Shown here piece after piece: positions 11,583 to 42,001 of a stretch of DNA of 42,001 bases (its first letter is position 1; every line of letters begins with the position of its first letter). Origin of the DNA: Candidatus Aphodenecus pullistercoris (GTDB taxonomy: Bacteria > Spirochaetota > Spirochaetia > Sphaerochaetales > Sphaerochaetaceae); contig JADIMU010000020.1 in NCBI GenBank assembly GCA_017694495.1, forward strand, positions 1-42,001. Reading direction: 5' to 3'. Position numbers and translations under genes: made by a program. Below the pieces are notes generated by a model that ran no database searches, was not told the origin of the DNA, and saw only the letters and a list, made by a program, of their open reading frames with translations.

Positions 11583-11800
11583 TTCCAGTCCTCTCAAAGT
11601 GGCACGTCGCCCACTGTCCCCGTGTGGTCTTTGACAATCCGACTTCTTCCATCAGATGGCGGTCTTGTCGCGACTGTCCTGAATCATAATCTGATAAATA
11701 TTCTGATTTTGGAAATCAAAGTTATATTTCATAGTTTTGATGAAGGATGGTCCAGCCTCGTGCTCCGATTCAGAATCACTGGAATCATCTCACCTTCGGC
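11583..11800. other. Convergent intergenic region with AT-rich island
   Basis: Between two converging genes lie 218 bases. The stretch from about 11690 to 11745 is conspicuously AT-rich compared with its surroundings and holds imperfect inverted sequence (CTGATTTTGGAAATCAAAG). No hairpin followed by a T-run and no convincing open frame was found. A TTGACA at 11631 has no matching -10 box. Confidence 0.5.
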
Positions 11801-37687: not shown

Positions 37688-39013
37688 ATGAAGAGACTTG
37701 CATACATCGCCCTGTGCCTCATCATCCTGCTGACAGGCTGCGCCACCAGCGGCCCCTCCACGAGGGAGCAGGCTTCCGTCTATACCGCCCTTAGGAGCGG
37801 GGACATCGAGCAGGCCCTCGTCGAGCTCGAGTCGATGCAGGAGGAGTACGAGGAGCCCGTCGTATACGAGGCCGACAAGGCCATCCTGACCTTCTACGCG
37901 AACAGGCCCGAGGACTCGATCAGCCTGATCGCTCCGGCCCTTGATACGATGGAGTACAACTCGATCGCCAGCTTCAGCGAGAGCATCGAGGGGCTTCTTG
38001 TCAACGACAACGTCAAGGCCTACGCCGGCTCGAACTACGAGAACCTCTATCTGAGGGGAATCAATGCGCTGAACTACTACCTCATGGGTGATGCTGAAGG
38101 TGCCGCAGTCGAGATCCGCCGCGCCAACATCATCAGCCGCGACTACCAGCTCAACATCGAGGAGCAGACGAACTGGCTGGAGAGCCTCGTGCTCGCCTTC
38201 ACTCCGAATCCCTTCCGCTACCTCACGATCCCCGAGGTCGAGGACTACACCACGAGCGCCTTCATCAACTACCTGAGCATGCTCATGTACGCTTCCATGG
38301 GCGACAGCGGCAACGCCTCAGTCGACTACAGGACCTTGCAGGAGACTGCGACGGATCCAAGCGTTGTCAGCGAGGAGGATACTGCCGCCCCGGCCGGAAA
38401 GAGCCGCGTCAACTTCATCGGCTTCACCGGTTTCGTCGCGACGAAGGAGGAAGTCAGCGTCATCGCCGAGGATGGAGGCGTCTTCCACAAGGTCGTCTGG
38501 CCCCATGTCATCGACAGACCCAACGCGGACATCCAGCGCGTCGTCGTCGAGTGTTCCGATGGCCAGAGGATCGAGCTTGGAGTCCTCGAGGACGTCAGCG
38601 AGCTTGCCAAGCGCAACATGGCGATGGACACCAGCGCGAAGTATCTTGGCAGCTACTACCGCGGCTACACGAAGATGCTCGCCGCGCAGTCGGCCGCCGA
38701 AGAGGCCTACGACCTGGCCATGGACCAGCTGTCAGGAGTCAATCCCATCCTCAGGAGTGCAGGTGAGAAAGCCGCCCGCGTCGCCTATGAGGAGGCGCTC
38801 GAGGCGGTCGACTCTACTGAGATCGCCGACACCCGCATGGCCCGCTTCCTTCCCGACAAGGTCTGGGCAGGCGGCATGAGCCTCACACCGGGCATCTACG
38901 ACTTCACGATCACATACGTCACGAGCGAAGGCAGCTTCACGGCCGTGCGCGAGGACGTCAGGGTCGCCAATGACGGCGAGCCCAATCTGGTGGTCTCGAC
39001 ATGTCTGCGCTGA
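37688..39013 (+). CDS. COG3014-family lipoprotein
   Basis: The 441-residue lipoprotein has its lipobox at LTGC (Cys18). The N-terminal half is helical and TPR-like: ALRSGDIEQALVELESMQEE, then AINALNYYLMGD-type repeats and EIRRANIISRDYQLN. The second half contains INFIGFTGF-like and FHKVVWPHVIDRPN segments and a closing strand region (LTPGIYDFTITYVTSEGSF). In gammaproteobacteria and elsewhere COG3014 proteins are encoded beside LpoB, as here, but their function is not established. AGGAGG spans the end of the preceding gene. Its last 13 bases overlap the next gene. Confidence 0.87.
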   Translation: MKRLAYIALCLIILLTGCATSGPSTREQASVYTALRSGDIEQALVELESMQEEYEEPVVYEADKAILTFYANRPEDSISLIAPALDTMEYNSIASFSESIEGLLVNDNVKAYAGSNYENLYLRGINALNYYLMGDAEGAAVEIRRANIISRDYQLNIEEQTNWLESLVLAFTPNPFRYLTIPEVEDYTTSAFINYLSMLMYASMGDSGNASVDYRTLQETATDPSVVSEEDTAAPAGKSRVNFIGFTGFVATKEEVSVIAEDGGVFHKVVWPHVIDRPNADIQRVVVECSDGQRIELGVLEDVSELAKRNMAMDTSAKYLGSYYRGYTKMLAAQSAAEEAYDLAMDQLSGVNPILRSAGEKAARVAYEEALEAVDSTEIADTRMARFLPDKVWAGGMSLTPGIYDFTITYVTSEGSFTAVREDVRVANDGEPNLVVSTCLR

Positions 39014-40722: not shown

Positions 40723-41388
40723 TCAGACGTAGCCGAGACTCGTCGTGTAGGCGTCGATGGCGGCGGCCAGGGCTTCGACGTCGATGCCTTCCAGCTGGCT
40801 GTCGTAGCCGCTGATCAGCTCGGAAGCTTTCTTCTCAGCGGCATCCTTCACCATCTGGCTGTCGCCTTCCTCTTCGGCGAGGGCCTCAAGAAGGGCGGCG
40901 AGCCGGTCTTCCGTCTCAGCCTTCTTCTCCTCGATCTGGTTCAGGTAGTCGTTGGCGGCCAGGGCATACTGGTCGTCGAGGCTCTTCGCCTCAAGCGAGA
41001 CGAGGGTCCAGACGGTACCGTCGGGTGCGCTCCAGCGCTGCTCCGTCTTCACTCCTTGCATGGTGAAGTTGACGACCTGCAAGGTGATCTGCTCGTAGGC
41101 GTCAAGCAGGCTGCCCTCGCTGTCGTTTGTATAGTTGGCGGTCGCCTCCTTGATCGTCGACTGGAGCTTGCGTGCCAGATCCGCCCTGGCGTTGGCGTCG
41201 GCGGAGTTGGCCGAATTTGCTTCTGTGGAGAGCTTGGCCCTGCCGACTCCATAGACGTACTTGCTGCTCTCGGGGACGATGGTCGTCCAGATTGGAGAAC
41301 CGTCGGCGTTGAGTTCGTCGATGTCGGTCTCCGTCGCACAGGAAGCGAGCAGCAGGACGGCAAGCAGGATCAGGATGGTCTTCCTCAT
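40723..41388 (-). CDS. LPP20-family lipoprotein
   Basis: The 221-residue lipoprotein has its lipobox at LASC (Cys17). The LPP20 domain follows: IWTTIVPESSKYVYGVGRAK, then an Ala/Asn-rich helix (SANSADANARADLARKLQST) and VWTLVSLEAKSLDDQYALA. The C-terminal ~70 residues form a charged helix. LPP20 proteins are secreted or surface lipoproteins of unknown function. AGGAGG stands seven bases before the ATG. An upstream in-frame ATG lacks signal character and is rejected. It is encoded after a related protein on the same strand. Confidence 0.88.
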   Translation of the reverse strand: MRKTILILLAVLLLASCATETDIDELNADGSPIWTTIVPESSKYVYGVGRAKLSTEANSANSADANARADLARKLQSTIKEATANYTNDSEGSLLDAYEQITLQVVNFTMQGVKTEQRWSAPDGTVWTLVSLEAKSLDDQYALAANDYLNQIEEKKAETEDRLAALLEALAEEEGDSQMVKDAAEKKASELISGYDSQLEGIDVEALAAAIDAYTTSLGYV

Positions 41389-41458: not shown

Positions 41459-41970
41459 TCAGTCCTCGACTCCACCAAGACCGAAGTACTTCTCGATGGC
41501 GTTGTCAAGCATGGCGTTGGCCTCGGCGGAAGCCTCGTTCCTCACGAAGGTCTCGCTCTGGAAGACCTCGTCTGCGGATTCCCTGAGGGAGGTCTCGACA
41601 TTGGCCTTGGGAATGCTCATCAGGACCCAGACGGAATTGTCGGCGGGATTGATGTAGAGCTCTTCCTGGGTCACACCGGTGAGGACGGCGCTGGCGTTCT
41701 GGATGGAGAGGTTCTCGAAGGCGTCCATGGCCTGGCGGTTGGCTCCGCTGCCGGCGTCGTTGGTGTAGGTCGTGATGATCTCGTTGACTGCCGTGCTGAT
41801 GGACTCGGTGAGGACGTTCCTGGCGGCGGTCTGTGCCATCTTGATCGAGTTCTGCAGGTTGCTCAGGTTGCCGTAGCCGGCGCCGTAGATCACATCCTGG
41901 GCGACGGGTGCGTCATAGGTCCACTCGGGAAGACCTTCCATTCCGGCGGGGGCCTGAGTCGACTCGGCGG
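41459..41970 (-). CDS. LPP20-family protein, 5' end missing at contig end
   Basis: Only the C-terminal ~169 residues are present. The frame is open past an internal ATG at 41941 (preceding residues AESTQAPAG) to the last genomic base, 41970. The visible part is LPP20-like: GLPEWTYDAPVAQDVIYGAG, then NSIKMAQTAARNVLTESIST, then SVWVLMSIPKANVETSLRES. It resembles the neighbouring lipoprotein in layout (VYGVG/IYGAG, then an Ala-rich helix, then VW-LVS/VW-LMS), so the two are probably paralogues. The signal peptide and any lipobox lie in the missing part. The frame runs on into the adapter sequence, which is an artefact. Confidence 0.85.
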
Positions 41971-42001
41971 CTGTCTCTTATACACATCTGACGCTGCCGA
42001 C
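41971..42001. other. Illumina Nextera adapter sequence (assembly artefact)
   Basis: The last 31 bases match the reverse complement of the Nextera Read-1 transposase adapter. They begin with the 19-bp mosaic end CTGTCTCTTATACACATCT (41971-41989) and continue GACGCTGCCGAC. This is library-preparation sequence left at the contig end, not a natural transposon end. Confidence 0.97.

Follow-up and report, generated by a model that had tools for sequence, protein, structure and literature searches.

The right-hand part of the window, that is, the whole stretch of DNA analyzed here (42,001 nucleotides), carries a cluster of envelope-protein-like genes between positions 37688 and 41970. The cluster includes genes for a 441-aa protein that starts like a lipoprotein and matches no Pfam family and for a 327-aa protein that matches LPP20 and LpoB weakly, an ORF of 239 aa, and, on the opposite strand, genes for two LPP20-like lipoproteins, an arrangement we take to be reminiscent of LpoB/LPP20 gene groups in other bacteria. 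The first of the two lipoprotein genes (40723 to 41388, minus strand) is intact and matches the LPP20 family (Pfam PF02169, E = 2.9e-10). The second (41459 to 41970, minus strand) resembles the first and is a genuine gene truncated at its 5' end, with 53% identity to a 187-aa lipoprotein in genome G009. It is followed by 31 further bases (41971 to 42001, CTGTCTCTTATACACATCTGACGCTGCCGAC). Since the window is the entire contig C1 (G000:C1:1-42001) of a draft genome of 70 contigs (2.07 Mb, 98.6% complete), position 42001 is the final base of that contig and a true contig end.

The final 31 bases are identical at 31 of 31 positions to the reverse complement of the Nextera Read-1 transposase adapter, whose oligo we take to be TCGTCGGCAGCGTCAGATGTGTATAAGAGACAG. 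The sequence-only reading of this DNA had identified them as untrimmed Nextera Read-1 adapter, and the complete match at the contig end bears this out. Its "Read-1" label is right as to type, with the small correction that the oligo stands in reverse complement, directed outward as in read-through. The reverse complement of the Read-1 oligo is what Read 2 yields after crossing a short insert. Positions 41971 to 41989 (minus strand) hold an exact 19-bp mosaic end of Nextera/Tn5, its single exact copy in the window; in 100 shuffles of the window no match was found even when three mismatches were allowed. Positions 41990 to 42001 (minus strand) hold the part specific to the Read-1 adapter, GACGCTGCCGAC. 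Compared with the full adapter, the outermost GA and the index are absent from C1, whereas the same sequence with GA is present in contigs C22, C39, and C63.

These three contigs of the same assembly (G000) are terminated by the same adapter, each after an unrelated flank: C22 at 11696 to 11731 (inside a gltA/gltD-like gene), C39 at 51966 to 52001, and C63 at 56446 to 56486 (inside dnaK). Adapter-derived bases number 31 in C1, 36 in C22, 36 in C39, and 41 in C63. The C63 tail is 10 bases longer than that of C1, comprising the last GA of the adapter and the octamer TACGGCGT in the position of the i5 index. This layout, adapter and then an index-like 8-nt octamer, may point to ACGCCGTA or its reverse complement as a candidate i5 index. 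C22 and C39 show GATAC beyond the 31 bases present in C1 (TAC after the full 33-base adapter); their TAC and the TACGGCGT of C63 are consistent with one shared octamer at the i5-index position. A search of all 140 contig ends for adapter prefixes of at least nine bases (at least six at the very end) returned only the four full cases. The genome holds four copies of the mosaic end, all at contig ends and none internal to any contig of the assembly. As it occurs nowhere else in the genome, an adapter of the Read-2 type is likewise absent from all 140 contig ends. No copy of the mosaic end was found in 15 other genomes of the same genus. All four adapters are of the Read-1 type and all four stand at right-hand contig ends, each of which would be a 1-in-8 coincidence if random. 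The sizes of the four contigs are also all 1 modulo 5, a pattern we dismissed as coincidence, as other contigs do not follow it.

Read in the frame of the truncated lipoprotein gene (minus strand), the adapter translates as V G S V R C V stop E T, followed by a codon that is part adapter. That the gene at the contig end is corrupted by the adapter, as had been claimed, is borne out by this false in-frame TAA. The adapter does add false residues; only two are whole ones, behind the stop codon, and they are minor damage compared with the spurious "complete" ORF of 160 aa at 41459 to 41941 (minus strand). Because the adapter supplies the upstream in-frame TAA, the truncated gene passes for a complete 160-aa protein without a signal peptide. 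The LPP20 label previously given to this gene holds indirectly. A Pfam search of the truncated protein (41459 to 41968) gave no match at E ≤ 1, LPP20 (PF02169) included, so the name rests on the neighboring gene at 40723 to 41388, which matches PF02169 and with which the truncated protein shares 28% identity (E = 1.6e-12).

The missing start of the gene lies on another contig of the assembly, C55. In the relative G009, the orthologous lipoprotein starts with MKKTIIALALVLITVLAGCSSTAEV, and the preceding gene encodes 270 aa. The orthologue of this upstream gene in the draft genome lies at C55:48652-49386, 117 bases short of the right end of C55. These last 117 bases encode, after a short spacer, MKKTLLIVALVAIALLAGCSS plus two bases, and the DNA ends in ATGAAGAAG...TGCTCTTCCAC. 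The final 65 bases of C55 thus hold the missing lipoprotein start, with start codon, signal peptide, and lipobox (about 22 codons). The minus strand of C1, once the adapter is removed, begins with two codon bases and then encodes AESTQAPAGMEGLPEWTYD, for which the G009 counterpart is TAEVAPVEDANGLPQWVYQ. With the missing gene start at the end of C55 and the start of C1 matching G009, C55 and C1 are most likely neighbors, with the chromosome going on past position 41970 at the right end of C55. The frame at the junction permits an overlap of 1 base or a gap of 2, 5, 8... bases, and probably no more than a few codons separate C55 from the break in C1. Should the junction be the 1-base overlap, the true protein would gain about 31 N-terminal residues, signal peptide and lipobox included.

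A contig broken at a mobile element would offer another account of the 31 bases, namely as the real end of a Tn5/IS50-type transposon, and the 19-bp mosaic end does resemble Tn5 ends. This similarity is a general one: the mosaic end was engineered from the outside and inside ends of Tn5/IS50. It is synthetic, and what stands next to it in C1 is primer sequence and not IS50, the next 12 bases being the synthetic Read-1-specific part. The same 31-mer terminates four contigs, in one case with an index-like octamer after it, while no contig carries a copy within. Furthermore, the interrupted gene goes on in C55. We consider a transposon end vanishingly improbable, and refuted by a tail that is specific to Nextera and by the rest of the gene in C55. 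The earlier warning that the adapter should not be mistaken for a Tn5 end was therefore well placed, as the Read-1-specific tail follows and internal copies are absent. The observation is confirmed to be an ordinary sequencing artifact, without biological novelty.

Genes cut at two of the other adapter-ended contigs are also continued elsewhere in the assembly. By profile search, dnaK is split between C63, where the adapter follows ...ITVPAYFNDAQR at about profile position 149, and C49, which takes up the gene from position 173, with about 67 bases absent between them. Of the gltA/gltD-like gene, C22 holds the part up to profile position 132 and C16 the part from 141 onward, and some 20 to 30 bases are absent. 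Both gap sizes are approximate, as they derive from profile positions. When the 300-base contig ends were searched by motif for the remainder of dnaK and of gltD, nothing was returned; it was the profile searches that located both.

What the sequences show directly is that the 31 bases are adapter, that this adapter recurs at four contig ends of the assembly, and that the genome carries on in further contigs. As to their common origin, we propose that the read length exceeded the size of library fragments ending at base 41970, so that Read 2 would have passed beyond the insert and into the Read-1 adapter in reverse complement. Trimming of the reads would then have been incomplete. With local coverage presumably low, no reads would have bridged to the next genomic stretch, and the assembler would have retained the adapter as an extension leading nowhere, with the chromosome itself proceeding past 41970 at the right end of C55. 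Taken together, we are practically certain that the 31 bases are residual Illumina Nextera (Tn5 tagmentation) adapter, with the genome going onward in C55; read-through, incomplete trimming, and low local coverage would best explain how it was left there.

The ordinary graph breaks of this assembly appear as nine pairs of contig ends with overlaps of exactly 131 bases, which suggests that a de Bruijn assembler finished at k = 131. The first and the last 250 bases of contig C5 (2960 bases) are identical, so that this contig may be circular or a repeat. The overlaps at graph breaks bear on whether the adapter itself caused the break in C1, a question separate from the identity of the 31 bases. 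Many fragments cut at 41970 could have let the adapter branch outcompete the genomic branch in the assembly graph; the genomic part of C1 does break off right at the adapter, and C55, the next contig, probably takes up the gene only a few codons on. However, branch points in the graph leave 131-base overlaps, and the clipped ends of C1, C22, C39, and C63 share no stretch of at least 16 bases with other contig ends, so missing bridging k-mers fit better than a fork. The roughly 67 bases wholly absent at C63 likewise fit missing coverage better. We regard a break caused by the adapter as possible but rather unlikely. The broader idea that Tn5 cut sites shared by fragments could systematically break assemblies where coverage is thin appears very improbable to us. 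It is plausible, as stated earlier, that reads running into adapter brought the contig to its end, but too few bridging reads at this site, as in the low-coverage origin we prefer, would leave the same trace.

Scans with the 31-mer in a collection of genomes and one of viral contigs returned at least 120 stretches each. Among the matches listed in the two collections, 121 of 127 and 116 of 120, respectively, had an adapter starting no more than 100 bases from the end of the fetched stretch, and copies near stretch ends were directed outward. All tails of at least two bases among these matches (236 of 236) continued with GA, followed mostly by a recurring 8-mer from a small set and then GTGTAG. 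Adapter, then i5 index, then the P5 end is the layout that these tails match. Given this recurrence and layout, adapter-terminated contigs are a widespread and well understood artifact in public data, and C1 shares their outward direction and end position with no notable difference. A search for literature specifically on adapter-ended contigs, judged by titles and abstracts, found none. One viral scaffold (L131:2141-2186, IMGVR_UViG_3300000510_000121) carries a Nextera adapter in its middle: two N are followed by CAC, then by the index-like octamer TATCCTCT, and last by the complete Read-1 oligo. Scaffolding can thus take in contigs that end in adapter, which places the adapter inside the sequence.

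The relevance of the finding is one of data hygiene only, and nothing about it is biologically new. At the end of C1, the adapter disguises a lipoprotein gene that would otherwise be visibly truncated; at C63, it cuts the contig inside dnaK in a genome scored as 98.6% complete; and elsewhere in public data, it lies buried inside an N-joined scaffold. The draft would be improved by clipping the adapter and recording C55 ahead of C1 (minus strand).
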